Assembly: GCF_003019675.1 (NCBI RefSeq)
Contig: NZ_CP028105.1
Span: forward strand, 2,186,282-2,250,281
Source of the DNA: Fusobacterium ulcerans
GTDB lineage: Bacteria; Fusobacteriota; Fusobacteriia; Fusobacteriales; Fusobacteriaceae
Length of the DNA: 64,000 bases
Reading direction: 5' to 3'
This document shows positions 4,136 through 60,061 of the stretch, piece by piece; within the stretch, counting starts at the first letter, position 1, and each line of letters starts with the position of its first letter. The notes beneath the pieces were generated by a model. It ran no database searches. It was not told the DNA's origin and saw only the letters and a program-made list of their open reading frames with translations. Made by a program: the position numbers and the translations under genes.

Positions 4136-5476
4136 ATGCCAGAAATTGAAAATTTGAGAAAAATTCCAAGTGACCTAGAGGCTGAAAGGTCTGTTTTAGG
4201 AGGTATATTCCTTAAACAAGATGTATTTGGTGATATAATAGAGATACTTTCTCCTGATGACTTTTATAAAAATGCTCATAAAATAATCTATGAAACTATG
4301 AGAGAAATTTACAATAAAGGAGAACCTCTTGATCCTCTAGTAGTAATGAATAGATTGAGAAAAAGTGAAAAATTTGATGAAGTGGGAGGGGAACAGATAT
4401 TCTACGATATAGTAGAAGAGGTTCCTACTGCTGCTAATATCACTGCTTATGCAAAAATAGTTAAAGAAAAAGCTATATTAAGAAGACTGGGAGATGTTGG
4501 AACTAAGATAGTAGAGATGACATATAGCGGTTATGAAGAAGCTGAAAATATTTTAGACAGAGCAGAAGGAATGATATTTAAGATATCAGAAAACAGCGAG
4601 TCAAAAGATTTAGTGAAAATAAGAGATGCTATGTCAGATGAATTTCTTAGACTTGAGAAAGTATATGCAAATAAAGGAACTACAATTGGTATTTCATCAG
4701 GGTTTACAGATTTTGATCAGATGACAAGTGGATTTCAGCCATCTGACCTTGTAATACTTGCAGCAAGACCAGCAATGGGAAAAACTGCCTTTGCACTTAA
4801 CCTTGCTCTTAATGCAGCATTAAAAAGTGAGAAAGCAGTACTTTTATTCAGTATGGAGATGTCAAGTTCTCAGTTGCTTCAAAGACTTCTTGCTGTAGAG
4901 GCAGGAGTAGGTCTTCAGAAAATAAAAACAGGATTTTTGGCACCAGAAGACTGGGGAAGGCTGGGAATAGCCAGTGGAAAACTTTCTAATACAGAAATAA
5001 ATATAGCAGATGTACCTAATCTAGGGGTACTTGAAATAAGAGCCATAGCCAGAAGATTAAAAGCGGCAGGAAAGTTAGATATGATACTTATTGACTATTT
5101 ACAGTTGATAAAAGGAAGCAGTGGAAAAACAGAAAACAGACAACAAGAGATATCTGATATCTCAAGATCACTTAAAGGAATTGCCAGAGAGCTTGATGTA
5201 CCTATTATAGCTCTTTCACAGCTTTCACGGGCTACAGAGCAGAGAGCTGACAGGAGACCTATGCTTTCAGACCTGAGAGAGTCTGGAGCCATAGAACAGG
5301 ATGCTGACATGGTAATGTTTTTGTATAGAGATGATTATTACAATGAAGAAACAGATGATAAGGGAATAACTGAGGTAATCATAGGTAAACACAGAAATGG
5401 TCCAACAGGAACAGTTAAATTGAGATTTTTCCATGAACTTACAAAGTTTGCGGATTATACTGATAAAGTAGAATAA
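4136..5476 (+). CDS. dnaB: Replicative DNA helicase
   Basis: Hexameric 5'-3' helicase that unwinds DNA at the fork. An N-terminal DnaB domain (starting at about residue 9, SDLEAERSVLGG) is followed by a RecA-like domain with Walker A ARPAMGKT at 210-217, the SMEMSS segment, the IDYLQLI Walker B strand and the LSDLRESGAIEQDAD stretch. At 446 residues it is full length with no intein. Its SD (AAGGAG) is seven bases from the ATG, and the gene closes the dnaX-rplI-dnaB cluster. Confidence 0.97.
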   Translation: MPEIENLRKIPSDLEAERSVLGGIFLKQDVFGDIIEILSPDDFYKNAHKIIYETMREIYNKGEPLDPLVVMNRLRKSEKFDEVGGEQIFYDIVEEVPTAANITAYAKIVKEKAILRRLGDVGTKIVEMTYSGYEEAENILDRAEGMIFKISENSESKDLVKIRDAMSDEFLRLEKVYANKGTTIGISSGFTDFDQMTSGFQPSDLVILAARPAMGKTAFALNLALNAALKSEKAVLLFSMEMSSSQLLQRLLAVEAGVGLQKIKTGFLAPEDWGRLGIASGKLSNTEINIADVPNLGVLEIRAIARRLKAAGKLDMILIDYLQLIKGSSGKTENRQQEISDISRSLKGIARELDVPIIALSQLSRATEQRADRRPMLSDLRESGAIEQDADMVMFLYRDDYYNEETDDKGITEVIIGKHRNGPTGTVKLRFFHELTKFADYTDKVE

Positions 5477-5495
5477 TTGAGAGAGGAATGATAAA

Positions 5496-6716
5496 GTGAA
5501 AAAAGTAGAATTACTAGCTCCAGTAGGAAATATGGAGAAGTTTAAAATGGCTATCCATTATGGAGCTGACGCAGTGTTCTTAGGAGGAAAAATGTTCAAC
5601 CTAAGAGCTGGAAGCAGCAATTTTTCTGATGAAGAATTAGAAGAGGCTGTAACTTATGCACATGATTTAGGAAAAAAAGTATATGTTACTTTAAATATAA
5701 TACCACATAATGATGAGCTGGATCTTTTGCCTGACTATGTAAAATTTTTGGAAAAAATTGGGATAGATGGAGTAATAGTTGCTGATTTAGGAGTATTCCA
5801 GATAGTAAAAGAAAATACAAACCTTCGTATCAGTGTAAGTACTCAGGCAAGTAATACAAACTGGCGTTCTGTACAAATGTGGAGAGATCTTGGAGCAAAA
5901 AGGGTAGTATTGGCAAGAGAAATATCTTTAGACAACATAGCAGAAATAAGAGCTAAGGTACCAGATATAGAACTTGAAGTATTTATCCATGGAGCTATGT
6001 GTATGTCAATCTCTGGAAGATGTCTGCTGAGCAATTATATGACAGGAAGAGATGCAAACAGAGGAGATTGTGCTCAATCTTGCAGATGGAAATATTCTCT
6101 TGTTGAAGAGACAAGACCTGGAGAATACATGCCTGTATTTGAAGATGATCATGGAACATATATATTTAACTCAAAAGATTTATGCACAATAGAATTTATA
6201 GATAAGATTCTTGATATAGGAGTGGACTCACTTAAAATAGAAGGAAGAATGAAAGGGATATATTATGTAGCTAACTGTGTAAAAGTATACAGAGACGCTA
6301 TAGACAGTTATTATTCTGGAAACTATAAATTTAATCCTAAATGGTTGGAAGAGTTAGAATCTGTTTCTCACAGATCGTATACAGATGGATTCTATATGGG
6401 AAGACCAGGTGTAGATGGACAAAATTATAATGACAGAAACTCATACAGCCAGTCTCATCAATTGGTAGCTAAAGTAGAGAAAAAACTTTCTGAAAATGAA
6501 TATATTCTTGCTATAAGAAATAGATTAGAAGTTGGAGAAAAACTGGAAGTTGTAAGTCCAGGGATAAATGTAAGAGAGATAACTCTTCCTAAAATGACTC
6601 TTATCACAAGAGGAAAAGAGGGAGAAGAGGTAGAGGCAGCAAATCCTAACTCATTTGTTAAAATAACTATAGACACTGAGCTAAATGAACTGGATATGCT
6701 TAGAAAAAGAATTTAA
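5496..6716 (+). CDS. TrhP-like U32 family protein (tRNA uridine hydroxylation)
   Basis: A member of the U32 'peptidase' family. Close relatives such as E. coli TrhP (YegQ) and Bacillus YrrO act in prephenate-dependent 5-hydroxyuridine formation at tRNA position 34 rather than as proteases. The start MKKVELLAPVGNMEKFKMAI and the cysteine-bearing core (HGAMCMSISGRC, then GDCAQSCRW, at about residues 165-200) match that branch. The start is GTG at 5496 behind a GAGAGG SD. Length (406 residues) is normal. It is the last gene before a strong terminator. No partner U32 gene is adjacent, so assignment to TrhP rather than another U32 paralogue is probable, not certain. Confidence 0.85.
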   Translation: MKKVELLAPVGNMEKFKMAIHYGADAVFLGGKMFNLRAGSSNFSDEELEEAVTYAHDLGKKVYVTLNIIPHNDELDLLPDYVKFLEKIGIDGVIVADLGVFQIVKENTNLRISVSTQASNTNWRSVQMWRDLGAKRVVLAREISLDNIAEIRAKVPDIELEVFIHGAMCMSISGRCLLSNYMTGRDANRGDCAQSCRWKYSLVEETRPGEYMPVFEDDHGTYIFNSKDLCTIEFIDKILDIGVDSLKIEGRMKGIYYVANCVKVYRDAIDSYYSGNYKFNPKWLEELESVSHRSYTDGFYMGRPGVDGQNYNDRNSYSQSHQLVAKVEKKLSENEYILAIRNRLEVGEKLEVVSPGINVREITLPKMTLITRGKEGEEVEAANPNSFVKITIDTELNELDMLRKRI

Positions 6717-6730
6717 TTAACTATGTAAAA

Positions 6731-6800
6731 AAGAAGCTGATTAAGAGGAAAAAAGTAAATTTTAAAATTTTACTTTAACTTCCAGGTCAGCTTCTTTTTA
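6731..6800. terminator. Bidirectional terminator between U32 gene and symporter gene
   Basis: The arms AAGAAGCTGA (6731-6740) and TCAGCTTCTT (6787-6796) form a stem closed by a second inner palindrome (about 6752-6776). A T-run follows on the plus strand and an A-run precedes the hairpin, so it can serve both converging transcripts. Confidence 0.85.
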
Positions 6801-6815
6801 TTAATTGAAAGTTTA

Positions 6816-8507
6816 TTAATTTTTCTTTTCTATTTTTCTAGTGAATATACAGCAGAAATAAGTTAAGACAATAAATATAATTGTTATTATTCCTATTCGC
6901 CCCTTTAGATTTTCACTTTGAGAAAGCAAACCTATTTTTGAAAATACAACATATATCCATACAAGAAGAGACATAAGCATTACAGATACTGTATATCTGT
7001 ATTCCCAAGGTTCAACAGATACCTCGTATCTAATAGGAAGAGAATATTCCTTTTTAGGAGGAATAATTTTATCAACAATATACATTAAGAAAAGACAAAT
7101 AACAAATAAGATTGCTATTACATATAGGAAATGTATTTTTACGGGGCTGATAAATTGTGTGTATCCATAAACAATAACAAAGAAGCCCATAGAAACTTTT
7201 GCAGCAAGAGCACTAGTTTTTTTAGAAAATATACCAACTAATACAATTATTGCAATAGGGACACTGAAAAGTCCAGCAACTTTTTGAATAAATTCAAACA
7301 GTCCTCCTGATGATTTTGAGATAAATGGAGCTACAATCATTGAAAAGACAGCTAAAACAGTACCAAAATATTTACTTACTTTTATAAGATTTTTTTCTGA
7401 AATATTTGGACTGAATAATGGTTTATAAATATTTAAACTGAATATAGTTGAAGCTGAATTTAGGGCAGAGTTAAAAGAACTTAAAACTGCTCCAAATAAG
7501 ACTGCTCCAAAGAAACCTGATAATTTACTAGGGAGAAGTTTATTAACTAATACAGGATATACAATATCTCCACTAATTTGATTCCCATAAATATTGTAGG
7601 CAATGATTCCTGGAACAACGAGTATAAGAGGAGCTACTATTATTTTTAGAAAAGCTGTTAAAAGAACTCCTTTTTGTCCCTCTTTTAAAGATTTTGCTCC
7701 TAAAGCTCTTTGAATTATGGCTTGGTTTGTACACCAATAATAAACAGCCATGATTCTCATTCCTGTAATAGCAGCACCAAATGGAGCTTGAGAGTCTTTT
7801 GATCCAATAGCATTAAGCTTTTCTGGGTTATGCTGGAATAGATACTCAATACCTTTCATCATGCTTCCTTCACCTAGATATATAAATCCAAGAACAGGGA
7901 TAGCTAAACCTCCTATTATTAATCCTATACCATTGACAGTATCTGAAACTGCTACAGCTTTTAATCCACCAAATATAGCATAGATACTTCCAACAATTCC
8001 TATCATCCATACCGAAAGAATAATAGCACTTTCAGGAGAAATATTAAGCAGTTCAGGGATATTAAATAACCTCATCATTGCAATAGAACCAGAATAAAGT
8101 ACAGTAGGAAGAAATGCTACTCCTAATGTAAGCAGAAAAAATACACTGACAATATTTCTTACTGTTTTATCGTATCTTTCTTCTAAAAATTCAGGAACAG
8201 TAGTAATTGATCCCTGAAGATATTTTGGAAGAAAATAAAGGGCAAGAATAACAATACCTATTGATGCACCAGATTCCCATGCAATAACAGAAAGCCCACT
8301 TTTAAATCCCTGAGCATTTAATCCAACCATCTGTTCTGTAGAAAGATTTGTCAGCATCATAGAACCAGCAATAACTGTTGCACTTAAACTTCTTCCTCCA
8401 AGAAAATATCCACTTTCAGTATTAAGATTATCATTTTTTGTTAAATACCATGAAATTATAGCTACAAGAGCAGTGAATAATATGAATGTTACTATTGTAA
8501 AAACCAT
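6816..8507 (-). CDS. Sodium:solute symporter (SSS family), sulfatase-linked
   Basis: A 563-residue integral membrane protein with about 13-14 predicted segments. It has SSS/SGLT-type features: GYFLGGRSLSA after the first segment, a LSTEQMVGLNAQG-like loop, and a TVPEFLEERYD loop. Members couple sodium entry to uptake of sugars, sugar acids or similar solutes. It begins 28 bases after the sulfatase stop codon and has its own strong SD (AAGGAGGG), so it is the third gene of a ROK-sulfatase-symporter operon. The inferred role is to import the sugar released or recognised by the sulfatase. The substrate cannot be read from the sequence. Confidence 0.9.
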   Translation of the reverse strand: MVFTIVTFILFTALVAIISWYLTKNDNLNTESGYFLGGRSLSATVIAGSMMLTNLSTEQMVGLNAQGFKSGLSVIAWESGASIGIVILALYFLPKYLQGSITTVPEFLEERYDKTVRNIVSVFFLLTLGVAFLPTVLYSGSIAMMRLFNIPELLNISPESAIILSVWMIGIVGSIYAIFGGLKAVAVSDTVNGIGLIIGGLAIPVLGFIYLGEGSMMKGIEYLFQHNPEKLNAIGSKDSQAPFGAAITGMRIMAVYYWCTNQAIIQRALGAKSLKEGQKGVLLTAFLKIIVAPLILVVPGIIAYNIYGNQISGDIVYPVLVNKLLPSKLSGFFGAVLFGAVLSSFNSALNSASTIFSLNIYKPLFSPNISEKNLIKVSKYFGTVLAVFSMIVAPFISKSSGGLFEFIQKVAGLFSVPIAIIVLVGIFSKKTSALAAKVSMGFFVIVYGYTQFISPVKIHFLYVIAILFVICLFLMYIVDKIIPPKKEYSLPIRYEVSVEPWEYRYTVSVMLMSLLVWIYVVFSKIGLLSQSENLKGRIGIITIIFIVLTYFCCIFTRKIEKKN

Positions 8508-28404: not shown

Positions 28405-28566
28405 AAGGAGACTAATGTAAGACAAGCGCCAGAACTTTTTATAAAAGTTGACGAGGACTGAGATAATCGAAATTTCGGCGGGTTTCTCAGAGGTGGTTAC
28501 AACCGTTACTAACAAAGCTATAGGGCAACCTATGGAACAAAGAGGTAACTGTAACAAGTCTCCTAT
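28405..28566 (+). ncRNA. glmS self-cleaving ribozyme/riboswitch
   Basis: The conserved core is visible: AGCGCCAGAACT (28425-28436), then AGTTGACGAGG, and TCGAAATTTCGGCGGG, all marks of the glucosamine-6-phosphate-activated glmS ribozyme. Cleavage is expected between A28425 and G28426. AAGGAGACT (28405-28413) is complementary to AGTCTCCT (28557-28564), closing the element. High GlcN6P triggers cleavage of the leader and loss of the glmS mRNA. Confidence 0.95.
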
Positions 28567-28596
28567 GGACATTTTAAATTAAATAGGAGGTTGCAT

Positions 28597-51222: not shown

Positions 51223-51330
51223 TTCTTAGGAAATTATAATTTGATAAATTTACTGAAAAAATAAAAAATATTAATTATTTTGCATTTATATTAGATATAT
51301 TAATCAAATAAGGTTAAAATTGATAGCACA

Positions 51331-51357
51331 AAAAAGCTGATCATAGTCAGCTTTTTA
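51331..51357. terminator. Hairpin at the end of the minus-strand relic gene
   Basis: AAAAAGCTGA and TCAGCTTTTT form a 10-bp stem with a short loop; it overlaps the stop codon at 51355-51357. Confidence 0.7.
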
Positions 51358-51534
51358 GTCATATTCTTTCCAGCAAATGGAGTCTGCATGTATATTAAAA
51401 TATGATATTTTTTTAACTTTCATTCTGGTATTACATTTAAAACAATAAAAAGGATTTACTCCAAAAGCTTTCTATTTTTTATCAGCATAGTCACAACATG
51501 CAAATCTCTCTTTAGCAAGTTCTAAAAATCCCAT
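51355..51534 (-). pseudogene. Sixty-codon relic with in-frame TAG, nitroreductase-like N-terminus
   Basis: An ATG at 51534 with a TAAGGAG SD starts MGFLELAKERFACCDYADKK, which resembles the first residues of nitroreductases. TAG follows at codon 21 (51472-51474), then 38 more in-frame codons with Cys residues (YCFKCNTRM and SICWKEYD) to a TAA at 51355. The tail does not look like a nitroreductase, so it may be a deletion remnant or a small Cys protein that lost a codon. It is divergent from a broken HxlR gene, a usual partner of nitroreductases. Confidence 0.55.
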
Positions 51535-51648
51535 TTTATTTCTCCTTAAATTTTCAATAAATTTATGCACAAAAATTTAGAATATAGTAATTACTCTTTT
51601 GTATTACAGTATCTAAAAAGATACTGTAAATTTTTAAGGAGGATTATA

Positions 51649-51995
51649 ATGAAAAATGAAATATACAATTGTCCTATTGAAGCAACTTTAGAACTTATAG
51701 GTAATAAATATAAATCTCTTATACGTTGGCATATGATAGATAAAGTATTGAGATATAGTGAACTTCAAAAACTTATTCCACAGGCTACTCCTAAAATGCT
51801 GACTGAGCAACTTAGAAAGCTTGAATAACATGATTTGATTATCAAACTGTTTATCCTGTAGTTCCTTCTAAAGAAAAATACTCTCTTTCTGATTCTAGAA
51901 AAACTATAATTTCCATACTTGATACGATGTGTGATTGGAAAGAAAAATTTTTAGAAAGAAACCAGATTCCTTCATGCAGCAATAAAAAAGATTAA
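51649..51995 (+). pseudogene. HxlR-type regulator, inactivated by stop and frameshift
   Basis: The ATG at 51649 has an AAGGAGG SD and begins MKNEIYNCPIEATLELIGNK, a HxlR opening. After QLRKLE the frame meets TAA at 51826-51828, where relatives continue with an acidic residue. The rest of the family pattern (QTVYPVVPSKEKYSLSD, then ISILDTMCDW) is present up to 51995 but in another frame, so a second lesion lies near 51840-51850. Two independent lesions show it is dead. Confidence 0.85.
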
Positions 51996-52016
51996 TTTTT
52001 ATTATCATCTATATGA

Positions 52017-53354
52017 TTATTTCATTTCTCCACTCTTTTTGTAATAATTTTTCTTTTCAGCATACATAAGCTTGTCTGCTCTAGCTATCTGTTTATCTAC
52101 CATTATTTTTCCTGTATTCCAGTCAGTTCCAATAGATACACTTAAATCTTTATCTAAGTCTATAATTTTCCTTAAATATTTTATATCTTCTTTAAATTTT
52201 TCTTCTGATGTATTATTACAAACTACTACAAATTCATCTCCGCCTATACGAAAAACATCTTCCTTAAATGTATTTATCAATATTTCTGCAATACGTTTCA
52301 ACATCTCATCTCCATAGGTATGTCCATATGTATCATTTATTATTTTAAGTCCATTTAAATCCATATATATTATTCCTAAAGTTTCTGGAAGATTTTTTTC
52401 TATTTCTTCAAGAGTACTTATATATTTATTTCTATTCCCTAAGCCTGTAAGCATATCTGTAAAGCTCATCTCTTCCAATCTAGCCAAAAGTTTACGTTTA
52501 CGTATATCATCCATAACAAAAAAAGTTACTGATTTTAAAAAAGTTAAATCATTTGTATTAAATGATGGATTATCAATACCTAAGAACCCAATTATTTTAT
52601 CATTCTCTATCAAGGGAGCAGCTACTAGACTTTCTATTCCTTGAGCTGTAAGTATTTCATATTCAACACTTTTTTTAGTTACAGTTTTTCCAACAGATGT
52701 GATATAAAATTCTCCCTTAGTTTCAAATTCTTCAAACCAACGTTCTATTGAACATAATGGTACATTTTGAAGATTATCTATCTCTGCACTTACACAATCC
52801 ATACACCATTCATAAGTATTAGAAGTTGTCTGTTTTATATAATCTATTTCAAATATATAGGCACGTTCTCCTTGATAAAAATCCCCTATTATCTTTAATA
52901 ATTTATTTATAGCTATCTTTGTATCATTATACTCAGCTAATGTTTGAATACATTTTACTAAAGTCTGTTCATTTGACAATTTAAATTTAAGTCGTTGCTT
53001 TTCTAACTCATTTTTTGTAATATTAGTTGCTATTTCTAGGCGTAAATCTCTCCCATTCACTTCTATCAGCTTATCTTTTATAATAAAATACTCAGCAATC
53101 TTATCATTGTAATGTATCCAACTGTAAAAATTATCTTTTTTAAGTAAGCTATTTGTACAAAATTCACAAGGAGTATTCCTTGATTGAAGAAATTTATAGC
53201 ATTTTTTTCCTACTACCTCTGTCAAATTATTAATTCCTAATGTATTCAATCCATACCTGTTCATATAAACAAGGTCATAAGTTATTGGATCAGAAATATA
53301 AATAACATTTTCACTTTCATTTAAAATAATAGTACTTAACTCATCATATTTCAT
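52017..53354 (-). CDS. PAS-GAF-GGDEF diguanylate cyclase
   Basis: A 445-residue soluble signalling protein. A PAS-like N-terminal domain with a Cys pair (PCEFC, near residue 62) is followed by a GAF domain (about 130-285) and a GGDEF domain with the intact signature FRIGGDEFVVV near residue 380. It should make cyclic di-GMP from GTP. The product-inhibition I-site (RxxD) expected ahead of GGDEF is missing, so feedback inhibition may be absent. No membrane segments. The leader has a 7-7-7 inverted repeat and a start-stop ATG-TGA just before the gene. Signal unknown. Confidence 0.92.
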   Translation of the reverse strand: MKYDELSTIILNESENVIYISDPITYDLVYMNRYGLNTLGINNLTEVVGKKCYKFLQSRNTPCEFCTNSLLKKDNFYSWIHYNDKIAEYFIIKDKLIEVNGRDLRLEIATNITKNELEKQRLKFKLSNEQTLVKCIQTLAEYNDTKIAINKLLKIIGDFYQGERAYIFEIDYIKQTTSNTYEWCMDCVSAEIDNLQNVPLCSIERWFEEFETKGEFYITSVGKTVTKKSVEYEILTAQGIESLVAAPLIENDKIIGFLGIDNPSFNTNDLTFLKSVTFFVMDDIRKRKLLARLEEMSFTDMLTGLGNRNKYISTLEEIEKNLPETLGIIYMDLNGLKIINDTYGHTYGDEMLKRIAEILINTFKEDVFRIGGDEFVVVCNNTSEEKFKEDIKYLRKIIDLDKDLSVSIGTDWNTGKIMVDKQIARADKLMYAEKKNYYKKSGEMK

Positions 53355-53359
53355 AATAA

Positions 53360-53387
53360 ATCACATATGATCACCTGATTTGATCAT
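53360..53387 (-). promoter_or_regulatory. Inverted repeat and minimal ATG-TGA upstream of the GGDEF gene
   Basis: ATGATCA-N7-TGATCAT occupies 53367-53387. On the minus strand its loop carries CAGG. Seven bases further is ATG immediately followed by TGA, and the true ATG (53354) comes six bases later. The gene has no other SD. Confidence 0.45.
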
Positions 53388-53639
53388 CCTACTCCTTTTT
53401 TTGACATTAGGTTATAACAAAATATTTATGCATATTATATCATTTTTTAGAAAAAATAAATAGAATTATTTTTCCATTCATTACCTTTAAATCGTTTTTT
53501 AATTAAGAATTATCTATATTTTATATTTTTTTGAATATGTTACATATTTCTCATAGTTTTTATAATTATTGTAATCCTTTTCATGTTTTCAATTATCCTT
53601 TCTCTATTATTTATATATTTTAATAATACTTTTAATTTT

Positions 53640-54330
53640 ATAAATTTTTATTTTATGTAATAATCACAAACCATCACTTTAAGTGATGGTTTGCTCCACT
53701 CTATAAGTGTATAGGTTAAGCCTTACTAAATGGGTTCCCGACCATGTAATTCTTTATTCTGTTACTTAAGTAGGTGGTGTGCTTTAGTTTATTTTTTCTC
53801 CAAAAGGATCTATATACTTTCTCTTATATATTTTGCGATCCTTTCTTTATTTCTTCCTACTGTATCAACATAATATCCTCTACACCAAAAATGTCTGTTC
53901 CCATATTTATATTTTAAATTTGCATGTTTATCAAATATCATCAATGAACTTTTCCCTTTCAAATATCCCATAAAACTTGATATGCTTATTTTCGGAGGTA
54001 TACTTACCAACATATGTATATGGTCTTTACAGGCATTAGTCTCTATTATTTCTATTCCTTTAAATTCGCAGAGTTTTCTTAATATCTGCCCTATATCTCC
54101 TTTGATTTTTCCATACATTACCTGCCTTCTATATTTTGGTGTGAATATGATATGATATTTACAATTCCATGTTGTATGTGATAGACTATTATTGTCATAC
54201 ATCTTATGACCTCCTTTGATTAGTTAATTGGCCAGCAAACCTAATTAATTATATCAAAGGAGCTTTTATTTTCTAAGCATAGCCTTCCAGCTTTTTTGTA
54301 CCACTTGCTAAGCGAGTGGTTTTTTTATAT
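53640..54330 (-). mobile_element. IS200-type insertion sequence
   Basis: About 0.7 kb, with a single tnpA and subterminal palindromes at both ends. Near one end CAAACCATCACTT (53667-53679) and its complement (53681-53693) form a perfect 13-bp stem. Near the other, ACCACTTGCT (54300-54309) pairs with AGCGAGTGGT (54311-54320). This is the IS200/IS605 layout without tnpB. Exact ends cannot be set by eye. Confidence 0.8.
53810..54202 (-). pseudogene. tnpA: IS200 TnpA (Y1 HUH transposase), C-terminally damaged
   Basis: A 130-residue single-strand transposase. The HUH pair is His61-Ile-His63 (KDHIHML) and the tyrosine nucleophile is Tyr125 in AKYIRES. In active relatives this reads YIxxQ, the Gln completing the metal site; here the frame changes at that point, giving Ser129 and a stop two codons later. 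The lost tail (YIDPFGEKIN) is readable in another frame just downstream. It is therefore probably inactive. SD AAAGGAGG is intact. Confidence 0.8.
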
Positions 54331-54518
54331 AATAATAATTTTTTATTCTATTTTGTAAATAAAAAAAATAAAGTATAAAATAAGAAAATTAAAATTTGGA
54401 TCTGTTAATTTAAAATGAAAACTAGTCCTAGAAAAGAGAGGAAGGTATAAATTATTCTAAAAAAAGAGTATCACAAAAAGACACAGCTGTCTATGCTTTA
54501 AAAAATGTTATTTTTAAT

Positions 54519-55479
54519 TTACATTAAAAATAAATTAACTCTTTGTAATTCTGAATATTTTACTCTTACCACTACTTTTACTGGAGTTTCATTATTTAAA
54601 CCTGAGTGTGGTCTGATGTAGTTGTAAAAAAGAAGAAACCTTCTAAAAGCGCTAAAAAAACTTTCTATGAGATTGTTGGTTGTTTCATCAAACCACGATT
54701 GAACTTTAATATGTTTTGAAGAATCAAAACTACTTTGGCAGGTATTGAATAACTAGGAAGCTTATCAGAGACAATCGTAGCAAGAGTTCCATGATTTAGA
54801 AAACAGGTGGAAAGTTGATGCAGCTTCTCTAGAAGTTGTAAGGATACCAATCAAGGACATATCTAGTTTCAGAATCTATAAGAGTTTAGGTATAATATCT
54901 TTTACCAGCAATTTTAATAACAGTTTTATCAACATGCCATTTATCAGAAGAGCTAAGTTTTTTTGGTATATATTTACTGACAATTTTCTTAAAAATGGAA
55001 CTAAAACCTTTAGCCCGTTTGAAAATAGCCACATGAGATATCTTAACACCTTTTCTATCCCAGAAGTACTTAGCAATGGATCTAGTAGAAGAAGAGGCTT
55101 CAAAGTATAAATAAAGAGCATCAATGACAAGATTAATATCAGTTCTCAATCTTATAAGATTAATAGCTTTAGTAGATTTAAGTTCATCAGCCATTTCATT
55201 AACAAAAGTAGAATTTTTTAATCTGACATGAATATGATTACACTTTTTAGAATTGCATTTAAACTTGGAATAATGTTGATAATCATGATGAAGATAAGTT
55301 CCAGCACCACAAACAGGACATTTAGGATAACCTAGTTGTTATCTAGAGTTAGACTTTGAAGTAAATTGTTTAGTACAAGGCTTGCAAAGAAACTTTTGGT
55401 TTCTAGCTTTATCTTTTCCATAACGGTAAAAAGTTTTGGGAAAACAATTAGGACAAATAACGAAATTTTTTTTATACAT
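54519..55479 (-). pseudogene. Degenerate DDE-type transposase with zinc-ribbon N-terminus
   Basis: The frame begins at 55479 (MYKKNFVICPNC) with Cys pairs of a zinc ribbon, hits TAA after SNSR, then resumes (QLGYPKCPVCG). An open stretch (54886..55194) encodes the helix-turn-helix and KWHVDKTVIKIAGKRYYT with the first catalytic Asp. Further pieces, IVSDKLPSY with the second Asp and NLIESFF with the Glu, are in other frames with an internal deletion before YNYIRPHSGLN. At least three lesions. An IS6-like DDE fold is my best guess for the family. Confidence 0.8.
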
Positions 55480-55732
55480 AGTTAGTAACTGCTTCTTTCC
55501 TTTAGGGAGATATGATAAGTATTGGTAAACTATTATACCTTAAAGCTTAGGAGTAGTTCATATAAATTTTAAGTTAACAGAAACTAAAAATTATCAAGGA
55601 GGATTTTATAAAAAAAATTAAAAATAATATTAACTTTATTAGAAAAAATAATTAGTTAAAAATCAATTTAAATATTGTTTTTTAAGAGTGTTTATGATAA
55701 TATGAAGATATAAAATTAAACTAGGGGAAATT
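55480..55732 (+). other. Upstream region of the Cache-GGDEF-EAL gene
   Basis: A/T-rich with no gene. A stray SD-like AAGGAGG near 55598 is not followed by an open frame. The gene's own SD is AGGGGA just before 55733. Confidence 0.4.
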
Positions 55733-57967
55733 ATGAAAAAACTTAAATTGAAAAAGAAAAAAATTATTGCCTCAGTAATATTTTTTAATATTATCATTGG
55801 AATTTTTGTAATAGTTTTAATGAGATATGTCCAAAATTTACTTTACTTGGATGTTAACATACATTTATCAGAAGTCCTTAATCAAAATAAGGAAGTAATT
55901 ACAAATAAACTAAAATTAGAAATAAATAATTTAAATTTTATTTCTTATTTAATTAATGAAGAAATAATAAAAGAAGAAACAAAAAATAATGAAGAAATAA
56001 ATGATGACACTATAAAAAATATATTTTTAAAATATTATAAAAGTAAAAATAATAAAGATGTATACTTTGCTAATAAAAAGGGAGAGGCCATTTTTATTAA
56101 TAAGGTTATTGATATTACTGGAAGAAATTATTTCAAACTATCAATTCAAGGAATAAATAATATTTCTGAAAGAATTATTTCTAGAGACAATGGTGAAGAT
56201 ATGTTTGTAATAAGTGTACCTATAAAATACAAAAGAAAGATTATAGGGACTGTACAAAAAAAATTTACTCCAGAAGAAATGTATAATATATGTTCTGTTC
56301 CTTTATTTTCTTCAAAAGGAAATACATATATAATTAATAGCCAAGGGTATATACTAGTAACTTCAAATTATGAAAAATATAACAGAGAAACTGATAATTA
56401 TTTTAGAATGCTTTACTCAGAAGGAAATAAAGAAAAATCAGAACAATTGAAAAGAAGTATAAAAGAAAATAAAAGCGGATTTATTGAAATAGAAGGAAGT
56501 AAAGAAGATTTTTATTTAACATATACTCCTATAAAAGAAGTTTATGGCTGGTATCTTATTTCTACTATTTCTACTGAAATAATATCAAGAAATGGAAATA
56601 CAGTAGTTAAAATATTTTATTTCATACTTTTTATCATAATTTTTGTTTTTTTATTCAGTGGTTTATATTTTTTAGATTATAAAAATAAGCAACAAATTCA
56701 ATTAGAGAATATTGCATTTATTGATAATGTTACAAAAGGGGATAGTTATAATAAATTTATTGTGGATTTGTCACAAATACTATTAAATAATCCAGAAAAA
56801 AAATATCATATATTAAAATTTGATATAAAGAAATTTAAATATATAAATAGTTTTTATGGTTTTGAATTTGGAAATAAAGTTTTAACTGATATTTATAAAA
56901 ACAATAAAGAAAAATTAACAACAAATGAAAGAATTGCCAGAATATCAGCTGATAATTTTGTTATCTTGCTTGAAGAGCTTTCTATAGAACGCTTGAATGA
57001 TATTTTAGAGCCATTGAATTATGATGAGGGGGCAACTATTTATTTTTCTGGCGGTTTATATTCAATAAATGATATTTTTGAAAATGTAAATTTAATGGTA
57101 GATAAAGCTAATATAGCGGCTAACTCTGTAAAAGAAATAATGAATAAAACTCTTGGATTTTATTCAGAAGAATTTAATACTCAAATTTTAAAAAATGAAA
57201 AGTTAAAAAAACTGATAAGAGAAGCAATTGATAAAAAAGAATTAATGCCATATTATCAACCTAAAGTCAATATACATACAAATGAATTAGTTGGTGCTGA
57301 AGCATTGGCCAGATGGAAAACTAAGGAAGGTAAACTTATTTCTCCCTTTGAATTTATTCCAATTTGTGAGAAAACAGGAATGATTGTAGAATTAGACATG
57401 ATAATTTTTGAAAAAGTTTTGAAGTTTTTAAAAAGCAATTTAGATAAAAGAATAGAATGTACACCAATATCTGTTAATTTTTCAAAATTACATATTAATG
57501 ATAAAAACTTTTTTAAAAATATAATGGATAAACTTGATAAATATAATATTCCAACTTCATTAATTGAAATTGAAATGACAGAAACTGTTATTTTTGATAA
57601 TTATAAATTGATAAAAAACTTTATTAGAGAACTTCATAAGGTAAGGCTTATGATTTCTATGGATGATTTTGGTACTGGATATTCTTCTTTAAATATGCTG
57701 AAAGATATTCCAATTGATATTTTAAAAATTGATAAAGGATTTTTAGATAAGGGTTCTAATCTTCAAAGAAGAAATATAATTTTTTCAGCAATAGTAGATC
57801 TTGCTCAAAAATTAGGGATAAAAGTAGTAGTAGAAGGAGTTGAAACAATTGAAAATATAGAATTAATGAAAAATTCTGGTTGTTATATAGCACAAGGATA
57901 TTATTATGCTAAACCTATGGATGAAGAAGAGTTTCAAAAAATATATGAAGAGGGTGTTGTATGTTAA
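55733..57967 (+). CDS. Cache-GGDEF(degenerate)-EAL cyclic di-GMP phosphodiesterase
   Basis: A 744-residue membrane protein. Two membrane segments (about 12-33 and 292-315) enclose a periplasmic Cache-type sensor domain of roughly 260 residues. The GGDEF domain is degenerate: SADNF at 405-409 replaces the active signature, so it should not make c-di-GMP. The EAL domain is complete: E523-A-L in EALARW, then the EMTET, DDFGTGYSSL, KIDKGFL and EGVET segments. It should degrade c-di-GMP in response to a periplasmic signal. Its last codons overlap the XylF-like lipoprotein gene, which points to a ligand-receptor partnership. Confidence 0.93.
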   Translation: MKKLKLKKKKIIASVIFFNIIIGIFVIVLMRYVQNLLYLDVNIHLSEVLNQNKEVITNKLKLEINNLNFISYLINEEIIKEETKNNEEINDDTIKNIFLKYYKSKNNKDVYFANKKGEAIFINKVIDITGRNYFKLSIQGINNISERIISRDNGEDMFVISVPIKYKRKIIGTVQKKFTPEEMYNICSVPLFSSKGNTYIINSQGYILVTSNYEKYNRETDNYFRMLYSEGNKEKSEQLKRSIKENKSGFIEIEGSKEDFYLTYTPIKEVYGWYLISTISTEIISRNGNTVVKIFYFILFIIIFVFLFSGLYFLDYKNKQQIQLENIAFIDNVTKGDSYNKFIVDLSQILLNNPEKKYHILKFDIKKFKYINSFYGFEFGNKVLTDIYKNNKEKLTTNERIARISADNFVILLEELSIERLNDILEPLNYDEGATIYFSGGLYSINDIFENVNLMVDKANIAANSVKEIMNKTLGFYSEEFNTQILKNEKLKKLIREAIDKKELMPYYQPKVNIHTNELVGAEALARWKTKEGKLISPFEFIPICEKTGMIVELDMIIFEKVLKFLKSNLDKRIECTPISVNFSKLHINDKNFFKNIMDKLDKYNIPTSLIEIEMTETVIFDNYKLIKNFIRELHKVRLMISMDDFGTGYSSLNMLKDIPIDILKIDKGFLDKGSNLQRRNIIFSAIVDLAQKLGIKVVVEGVETIENIELMKNSGCYIAQGYYYAKPMDEEEFQKIYEEGVVC

Positions 57968-58971
57968 AAAAAATTTTATTGTATTTGGGAGTAATGATTT
58001 TTTTTATAAGTATGATTGGCTGTAAACAGGCTAATAAAAACAAAGGGAAAATAGGGGTGTCATTTGGAGTAGGTGAAGCTATAAGATGGAAGCAAGAAAA
58101 AGAATACATGCAAAATAGGGCAGATGAACTAGGGATTAAAATTGAAATAAAATTAAATACAAAAGATAAGCCCAAAACACAGGAAGAAGACTGCTTTGAA
58201 TTAATAGACAGCGAAATTGATGTATTAATTATTACTCCACGTAATGTGAATGATATGAGTAAAATTATAAAGTATGCTGAAAAAAAGAAAGTAAAAGTAA
58301 TAAGTTATGCACGGATTATTTTAAAAGAAAAAGTTGATTTATATGTAGGCTATGACAGTAAAAGAATGGGACAGATGTTAGGACAATATTTAGCTGAAAA
58401 AGTTTATAAAGGGAATTACATTCTTTTAAAAGGGGATGAAAATGATGAAAATGCTAATTTGCTATATGAAGGAGCTTTGAGATATATAGAGCCAATAAAG
58501 AATGATATTAATGTAATTTTGGATACTTCAATTTCTAATTGGTCTCCTAAAGTAGCTAAAGAATTAGTTACATCAGCAATAAAAGCAAATAATAATAAAA
58601 TAGATGCAATATTAGCTCCTAATGATAAAATAGCTGAAGGATGTGTAGAAGCTATAGAAGAATTAAATATAAATAGAAATATAACTATAACAGGAATGGA
58701 TGCAGAATTAAGTGCAGTTAAAAGAATTTTAAATGAAAAACAAGATGTAACAATTTACATGGACTTAAAAGAACTGGCATATACAGCTATAGATGAAGCA
58801 TTTAGTATGATACATAATAAACCTATTAGTACAAATGCAGAATATGATAATCAAAGTGGAAAAAAAATACCATCACATCTTATCACAGGAAGATTGGTAA
58901 CAAAACAAAATATAGATAGAATATTAATAGAAAGTAAAGTTTTTACAAGAGAAGAAATATATAATGAATAA
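57961..58971 (+). CDS. XylF-like sugar-binding lipoprotein
   Basis: A 336-residue periplasmic binding protein of the ribose/xylose cluster. A lipobox ISMIGC makes Cys21 the lipidation site. The Peripla_BP_4 fold is visible: KIGVSFGVGEAIRWKQEKEYM at the start, VLIITPRNVNDMSKI, DLYVGYDSKRMGQMLGQYL, AILAPNDKIAEG and ITGMDAELSAVKRIL. No ABC ATPase or permease gene is near. The start overlaps the EAL phosphodiesterase gene by seven bases, so it probably feeds a sensor rather than a transporter. The ligand is likely a pentose or related sugar. Confidence 0.9.
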   Translation: MLKKILLYLGVMIFFISMIGCKQANKNKGKIGVSFGVGEAIRWKQEKEYMQNRADELGIKIEIKLNTKDKPKTQEEDCFELIDSEIDVLIITPRNVNDMSKIIKYAEKKKVKVISYARIILKEKVDLYVGYDSKRMGQMLGQYLAEKVYKGNYILLKGDENDENANLLYEGALRYIEPIKNDINVILDTSISNWSPKVAKELVTSAIKANNNKIDAILAPNDKIAEGCVEAIEELNINRNITITGMDAELSAVKRILNEKQDVTIYMDLKELAYTAIDEAFSMIHNKPISTNAEYDNQSGKKIPSHLITGRLVTKQNIDRILIESKVFTREEIYNE

Positions 58972-59297
58972 ATTTGAGACTGTAAAATATTTTGTGTAAA
59001 TAAAGAATTAAAAACTTTCTAGATTAATGATAAAATATCATCAAGTAACTAGGAGGTTTTTTATAACACGATTATATCTTTAAACTTTGAAAATCAAGAA
59101 TATTTTTCAAAAAAATAAATCTCTAAAAATGAAAATGCTTAAAAATAGCCTAAATGGCAGAATAAAAGTCCACTTTTATACACAAAAGAGAACTTTATAT
59201 TCTATAGAATATAAAGCTACTACAAAGAACTTTTCAAAATATTTATAAAAATTTAAAAATAAGAAGAATATCTTATTTTAAACTTGGAGGAAATAGT
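58972..59297 (+). other. Intergenic region with perfect palindrome
   Basis: A 24-base perfect palindrome occupies 59193-59216 (half-site CTTTATATTCTA). GAGACTGTAAAA followed by TTTTGTGTAA (58976-58999) looks like a solo IS256-type inverted-repeat end. An SD-like AGGAGG near 59051 has no gene after it. Confidence 0.5.
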
Positions 59298-59879
59298 ATG
59301 AAAAGAAGCAATATTGAATCATCATTGAAAAGATTTTTGAAAAGAAAAGTAACAATAACATTGTGAATGGTAGTATCATTTTTAATTACAGGAGCTATAG
59401 GATATGGGGCATATGATATAGTAGCACAAGGAGAAATAAAATTTTATATAACACTTAAAGTTGGCAGTGGAAATCCTAAAATTATATGTGGTTGGAATTA
59501 TATAACAGATCTAACTAAAAATGAAGATCATTCAACTGATGAAACAAGTATTACTTTAAAAAGTGGAACAATAGATGAACTTATAGGTGAAAACCATCTA
59601 AAGAAAGTTGATTATAAAGGAGAAGTATATTTATATAGTATAGGAAATACAAGTGTAACTATGAATGATGAGACAGTTCAATATTTAATAGGTGGAAGTA
59701 AATCTAATGGAACTAAAGCTAACATAAAAAATGGAGAAATCAAAATATCAGCATTCTCTGGAAGTTTAGGAGTAGAGTTTAAAAAAGATAACAAAACTTT
59801 CGAAGTAGGATACAGTCTTTATTCATCAAAACATGAAACAGAAAACAGAGGAACTATGTCATTTAAATATAATTTTTAG
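59298..59879 (+). pseudogene. Internally deleted autotransporter with in-frame TGA
   Basis: The ATG at 59298 (SD GGAGG) starts MKRSNIESSLKRFLKRKVT, the extended basic leader of large Fusobacterium autotransporter adhesins. A TGA at 59364-59366 interrupts it, then the hydrophobic signal core (VVSFLITGAIGYGAY) continues in frame. The remaining 150 residues run straight into a C-terminal end rich in beta strands, closing with RGTMSFKYNF, the terminal-Phe pattern of an autotransporter barrel. The passenger and most of the barrel are missing. It is probably a remnant. Confidence 0.75.
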
Positions 59880-60061
59880 AATGAATTTATAAAAAAATAT
59901 TTATTTTTTCTAGGCTGTAGATAATAGAATTATTTACAGCCTTTTTATATCAAAAACATCATTCTAAATTGACAAATATAAGTAAATAGAGTACAATTAT
60001 TAGGAATAAATAAATTTGTATAAATATGATTTATAGAATAAAAGAAATATTTGGAGGAAAA

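Follow-up and report, generated by a model that had tools for sequence, protein, structure and literature searches.

The window analysed here is a stretch of 64,000 nucleotides from the genome of Fusobacterium ulcerans (G000, a single contig of 3.54 Mb), with a GC content of 30%. It carries two overlapping genes on the forward strand, the first encoding a membrane-bound phosphodiesterase (P0001) and the second a solute-binding protein (SBP, P0002); the features of the locus are collected in Table 1. A previous reading made from the sequence alone had described both open reading frames and their overlap of seven nucleotides. Both are real, and the overlap is identical in the second species found to carry the pair (G002), with the qualification that the EAL gene comes first and the SBP gene second. 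A ribosome-binding-site-like stretch, GAAGAGGG, lies inside the end of gene 1. Consensus scans for promoters and terminators gave results no better than those obtained with shuffled sequences. Elsewhere in the window, a glmS ribozyme/riboswitch (Rfam RF00234, 88.5 bits) is located at positions 28414-28560, just 5′ of a glmS-like gene at 28591.

Table 1. Features of the phosphodiesterase-SBP locus, in window coordinates.
Feature	Position	Strand	Evidence
Approximate 8.7-kb insertion (accessory island) with diguanylate cyclase gene, IS remnants, phosphodiesterase-SBP block and 170-aa ORF	51253..59941	.	Empty site, GC
Diguanylate cyclase, PAS/GAF-GGDEF type, 445 aa	52017..53354	-	Domain matches
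Conserved leader of the pair, presumably promoter/5′ UTR	55604..55732	+	G002 homology starts here
Gene 1, predicted TM-dCache-TM-degenerate GGDEF-EAL c-di-GMP phosphodiesterase, 744 aa	55733..57967	+	Sequence, domain matches
Periplasmic dCache_1 domain, residues 41-277	55853..56563	+	Pfam PF02743 4.2e-9, below gathering score
Degenerate GGDEF motif SADNF, residues 405-409	56945..56959	+	Sequence, alignment to intact GGDEF
EAL domain, residues 495-728	57215..57916	+	Pfam, MorA alignment
Gene overlap of 7 nt, ATGTTAA	57961..57967	+	Sequence; identical in G002
Gene 2, orphan type I solute-binding lipoprotein (Peripla_BP_4, XylF/ChvE superfamily), 336 aa	57961..58971	+	
Lipobox cysteine Cys21 (lipobox MIGC)	58021..58023	+	Sequence
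Ala117, invariant Asp in transport XylFs (pocket position)	58309..58311	+	Alignment
Met267, invariant Lys in transport XylFs (pocket position)	58759..58761	+	Alignment

P0001 starts with a transmembrane helix, followed by a periplasmic region and by a second helix that precedes the GGDEF domain. The periplasmic region matches dCache_1 end to end, with 36.7 bits where the gathering score is 45, in agreement with the Cache domain previously proposed; the AlphaFold model of the isolated domain reached a pLDDT of 33 and was left unused. In the cytoplasmic half the Pfam match to GGDEF is weak (2.8e-10) and that to EAL strong (1.5e-61). Instead of the GGDEF or GGEEF motif of active diguanylate cyclases the protein has SADNF, and hence cyclase activity is not expected and the domain would be catalytically dead. 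The EAL domain retains the motifs EAL, SVNFS, EMTET, DDFGTGYSSL, LKID, EGVE and QGY, and its signature residues match those of the active MorA EAL in a full-length alignment, so that, by sequence only, it appears competent as the catalytic output. The proposal of an inactive GGDEF and a complete EAL domain was thus upheld.

P0002 belongs to the Peripla_BP_4 family (7.7e-48), and its AlphaFold model (pLDDT 91.4) has the XylF/ChvE fold, with Z scores of 38-40 to XylF. XylF is also the nearest solved structure (5e-46 to 3m9w), while XylFII chains match at only 2e-8. The label XylF-like given in the sequence-only reading therefore holds for fold and superfamily but not for the xylose transporter family, since P0002 scores 198.3 bits with the xylF model TIGR02634, for which the curated cut-off is 389.55. 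In the tree it falls outside the XylF clade, on a long branch of its own, although long branches leave the exact joint unsure, and of the 106 columns with a conservation of 95% or more across 84 transport XylFs it deviates at 57. The XylF consensus residues Glu41, Asp117, Gln246 and Lys267 are replaced by Ile, Ala, Met and Met; the G002 copy has the same Ala117, Met246 and Met267, with Ala at position 41, and the changes D117A and K267M, common to both species, affect positions that are 100% invariant among the 84 transport proteins. Retained in the alignment are Arg42, Trp43, Arg118, Asp162, Asn164, Trp194, Asn221, Asp222 and Asp247; in XylF structures the kept and the replaced positions alike belong to the pocket. 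Xylose isomerase was found in neither host genome (G000 and G002) and is present in the congener G007. P0002 still looks able to bind a ligand and, because its pocket residues are partly kept and partly lost and the hosts have no xylose isomerase, xylose is not the likely one; the ligand is probably sugar-like. An alternative is that the pair senses D-xylose or another pentose, as a c-di-GMP counterpart of XylFII-LytS. The position of XylF as best solved relative and the many pocket residues retained agree with such a sensor, but the failed cut-off, the long branch outside the clade, the loss of two invariant residues in both species, the hosts without xylose isomerase and the far weaker match to XylFII chains than to XylF make it most improbable.

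XylF proper is encoded together with xylG/xylH-type ABC genes, while no ABC genes lie next to the P0002 gene either in the window or at the G002 locus, as had been observed for the window from its sequence. Nor was a partner seen elsewhere. The genome of G000 holds four other Peripla_BP_4 SBPs of the ABC type, each with its own ATPase and permease, and every permease seen among its BPD_transp_2 loci was accompanied by an SBP of its own. Since every such locus has its own partners, P0002 is an orphan, and it is neither part of a transporter nor a proper XylF. These observations bear on an account in which the dCache domain senses a small ligand of its own and the co-transcribed SBP serves uptake through an ABC transporter of the genome. 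That dCache domains of c-di-GMP enzymes can take ligands directly is known from SpdE and GcbC (PMC8846402). The several Peripla_BP_4 systems of the genome would offer transporters for the uptake half of the account; however, each CUT2-type permease found adjoins its own SBP, P0002 lacks over half of the positions conserved in transport XylFs, and its gene moves with the phosphodiesterase gene and with no transporter. Moreover, the aspartates of the published amino-acid-binding dCache motif are missing from the P0001 sequence, which argues against direct sensing. We therefore regard this account as unlikely.

The distribution of the pair was traced first in 61 relatives and later in a set of 98 genomes from the phylum. 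A survey for adjacent genes of this kind had been proposed with the earlier reading; it showed a pair that is intact wherever found but narrowly distributed, since only two of the 98 genomes (G000 and G002) carry it, with both genes together, in the same order and with the same overlap. Within these 98 genomes, relatives of P0002 above 34% identity and of the sensor half of P0001 above 26% identity occur only in G002, at 85% and 91%, respectively. The DNA homology between G000 and G002 is a single block of 3.37 kb (window 55604-58975), 91.4% identical, outside which only paralogous EAL and GGDEF stretches match, and the 3′ neighbours in the window (DUF1456, iron hydrogenase and an EamA-type transporter) are 1.14 Mb away from the block in G002. 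In the congeners G007 and G001 the site is empty and the sequence runs from window position ~51.25 kb directly to ~59.94 kb; hence the window carries an insertion of 8.7 kb, whose GC content is 25%. In G002, the corresponding site is occupied by different insertions, among them two large repetitive ORFs (601 and 648 aa) that resemble surface proteins.

Between G000 and G002 the dS values of the two genes are 0.305 and 0.299, those of seven other genes are 0.42-0.85, and dN/dS amounts to 0.13 and 0.23 for the two genes. Both are under purifying selection. As the shared block lies at unrelated loci, with equal dS and purifying selection, the most economical explanation is joint movement of the two genes and their retention as a unit. 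The claim that the orphan binding protein is functionally tied to the Cache-EAL phosphodiesterase thus gains support from a co-inherited block with both genes under selection. The pair could instead be passing cargo of an IS-rich island, decaying and with no working circuit, as might be thought from the low-GC insertion beside transposase genes and from the restricted distribution. Yet both reading frames are intact, the dN/dS values are those of constrained genes, and the block has been kept in two species at different loci, so we consider decay quite improbable.

A diguanylate cyclase gene 2.4 kb away had also been pointed out. It is indeed there, separated from the pair by an IS200-type transposase gene and a probable transposase remnant. 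Cyclases of the same PAS/GAF-GGDEF type stand beside the block in both G000 and G002. A conserved unit of three genes, with the cyclase as the third, was considered, but the cyclase at the G002 block shares only 36% identity with this one and was rejected as an orthologue. The G002 block is adjoined by a further diguanylate cyclase gene and a further GGDEF-EAL gene (L071 3171-6442), and thus is again located among c-di-GMP genes.

Wider searches returned transport proteins. In a scan of GTDB genomes with the SBP alignment the best 80 loci were all XylF-type relatives, although diverged pairs could escape a pattern method; XylGH-type ABC genes were present in the examined flank at 78 of these nearest SBP loci and an adjoining EAL gene at none of the 80. 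Viral contigs and phages gave no match to the pair; on plasmids the matches were limited to ordinary XylF-like proteins, with identities under 35%, and there was no dCache match. Outside the genus, no dCache domain of this kind was found at E 1e-8 in 389 genomes, with five candidates scored per genome.

Relatives of the dCache domain were found in other settings. One, in G002 (E 1e-13), is part of a hybrid histidine kinase, and at L085 of this genome the histidine kinase gene (4427-6946) overlaps by 4 nt the gene of an orphan SBP_bac_1 lipoprotein (6943-8250). Within one dCache sensor subfamily there are thus two SBP folds and two outputs. A third relative belongs to another dCache-GGDEF-EAL protein (L083 6829-9096; G000:C1:~1148830-1151100), distantly related to P0001 and encoded at the edge of a sialic-acid catabolic cluster with N-acetylneuraminate lyase, ManNAc-6-P epimerase, YhcH, a ROK kinase and a TRAP transporter with a DctP-type SBP. 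The gene occurs in G000, and synteny indicates it for G002 and G007 as well (L083, L086 and L087), that is, in at least three species, and its location makes signalling from sialic acid to c-di-GMP worth considering. Both the kinase with its SBP and the sialic-acid relative agree, circumstantially, with docking of SBPs on this dCache domain.

As in SBP-gated receptors, the SBP gene adjoins a gene for a membrane GGDEF/EAL protein and no transporter genes, in G002 as well as in the window. We consider it likely that the two proteins together form a membrane receptor that responds to a small molecule outside the cell, in which the binding protein docks on the dCache domain to set the phosphodiesterase activity. 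The course of events that we infer, from docking and the signal path to the sign of the effect and the class of ligand, would be as follows. P0002, with its lipid anchor no more than about 9 residues away, would close on its ligand and, once loaded, dock on the periplasmic dCache domain of P0001. By way of the second transmembrane helix and an inactive GGDEF domain, the ensuing change could then reach the EAL domain, whose hydrolysis of c-di-GMP would be raised or lowered; as the GGDEF domain should be dead, EAL activity would be the sole lever. The tether between Cys21 and the folded core measures 9 residues in P0002 and 16-24 in 19 lipoprotein XylFs, and would keep the protein against a membrane-proximal partner provided that it stays at the inner membrane. 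In a diderm, a Lys at position +2 could route a lipoprotein to the outer membrane, beyond the reach of an inner-membrane dCache domain. P0002 has a Lys at +2, which could mean such sorting and counts against a receptor, as does the fact that only two species carry the pair; besides, overlapping genes of an operon can encode proteins that never touch.

The likely output of the receptor was sought among the c-di-GMP effectors of the hosts. PilZ proteins were found in neither G000 nor G002. The G000 genome contains three c-di-GMP-I riboswitches (L214 5684-5759, 15439-15514 and 17190-17265; G000:C1:851683, 861438 and 863189), located ~90-110 nt 5′ of pilin-type genes (DUF4402- or SCPU-like) among which genes for PapD-type chaperones are interspersed, and riboswitches of this class were also found in G002, G001 and G007. 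In all three G000 leaders the 5′ arm of the terminator hairpin is drawn from the 3′ end of the aptamer, and because of this overlap they are probably ON switches. An active phosphodiesterase, by lowering c-di-GMP, would then turn these fimbrial genes off, elsewhere in the genome. Control of adhesion, as earlier supposed, is plausible for the pair because the riboswitches precede fimbrial genes. The first riboswitch-led fimbrial operon also encodes an SBP_bac_3-HD-GYP fusion with a transmembrane helix (L214 6473-8581; HD at 550, HHE at 603 and GYP at 611), possibly a phosphodiesterase with a built-in ligand gate; the next gene, for an SBP_bac_5 protein (L214 8598-10037), has no ABC genes beside it. 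These genes are a further sign that binding proteins are coupled to c-di-GMP hydrolysis in this organism.

More tentatively, as a real possibility but one we hold with less confidence than the receptor itself, the pair may be a mobile plug-in: a re-specialised lipoprotein derived from ChvE/XylF would gate a dCache-EAL phosphodiesterase, and the two, moved horizontally, would wire a new external cue into a core circuit of c-di-GMP, riboswitch and pilus in Fusobacteriales, the dCache subfamily having repeatedly recruited SBPs of different folds and outputs. If the receptor is real, the Fusobacteriales would gain a ligand-to-pilus c-di-GMP circuit built on a discrete, transferable module, with the riboswitch output as a simple reporter.

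A close parallel to the pair is NspS-MbaA of Vibrio cholerae, in which the genes for a periplasmic binding protein and for a GGDEF-EAL protein of the membrane are likewise adjacent. NspS is a polyamine-binding, PotD-like protein of the type II fold and P0002 a type I Peripla_BP_4 protein, so the likeness would be one of function, and the two pairs are not orthologous. The nspS gene is upstream of mbaA, while here the SBP gene is downstream of the EAL gene, and MbaA has SGDEF and apparently still makes c-di-GMP (PMC8079147), whereas the SADNF domain of P0001 should be dead. Occupancy of the binding protein sets c-di-GMP turnover in NspS-MbaA (PMC8079147, PMC8967002), and a like system is described in Sinorhizobium meliloti (PMC9993111). 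In Salmonella, ArtI is required along with the dCACHE_1 cyclase STM1987 (PMC8846402); again a c-di-GMP enzyme that bears a dCACHE_1 domain needs an SBP, but STM1987 is a cyclase and ArtI binds arginine, while the present operon combines a phosphodiesterase with a dedicated orphan SBP from a different family. A survey of SBPs concluded that activation of such receptors by them is general and widespread (PMC9602780). The pair is thus not undescribed in principle, given that SBPs are already coupled to c-di-GMP enzymes in NspS-MbaA and ArtI-STM1987; what looks new is the class of SBP, the dedicated mobile format of two genes and the host group. A 2022 review of c-di-GMP sensing lists no c-di-GMP enzyme gated by a sugar-binding protein, and notes that studies of the PBP clan in c-di-GMP proteins had until then been confined to SBP_bac_3 (PMC8846402); the literature search found no paper on such receptors in Fusobacteriales. 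If the receptor is real, the large type I sugar-binding superfamily would join the SBPs that gate c-di-GMP enzymes.

For the outer half of the receptor the comparisons are different. The transport proteins XylF and ChvE resemble P0002 in fold and superfamily. XylFII-LytS of Clostridium beijerinckii, with which the layout had been compared, shares an orphan type I sugar-binding protein that serves a sensor and not a transporter; its output, however, is a histidine kinase where the present pair has an EAL domain, and XylFII is much further in sequence from P0002 than XylF is, so that NspS-MbaA and ArtI-STM1987 are closer. In LuxP-LuxQ an SBP of the type I ribose family docks on a tandem PAS/dCache-type periplasmic domain. 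This is the nearest structural precedent for a type I binding protein that would sit on the dCache domain of P0001, differing in its ligand, AI-2, and in its histidine-kinase output.
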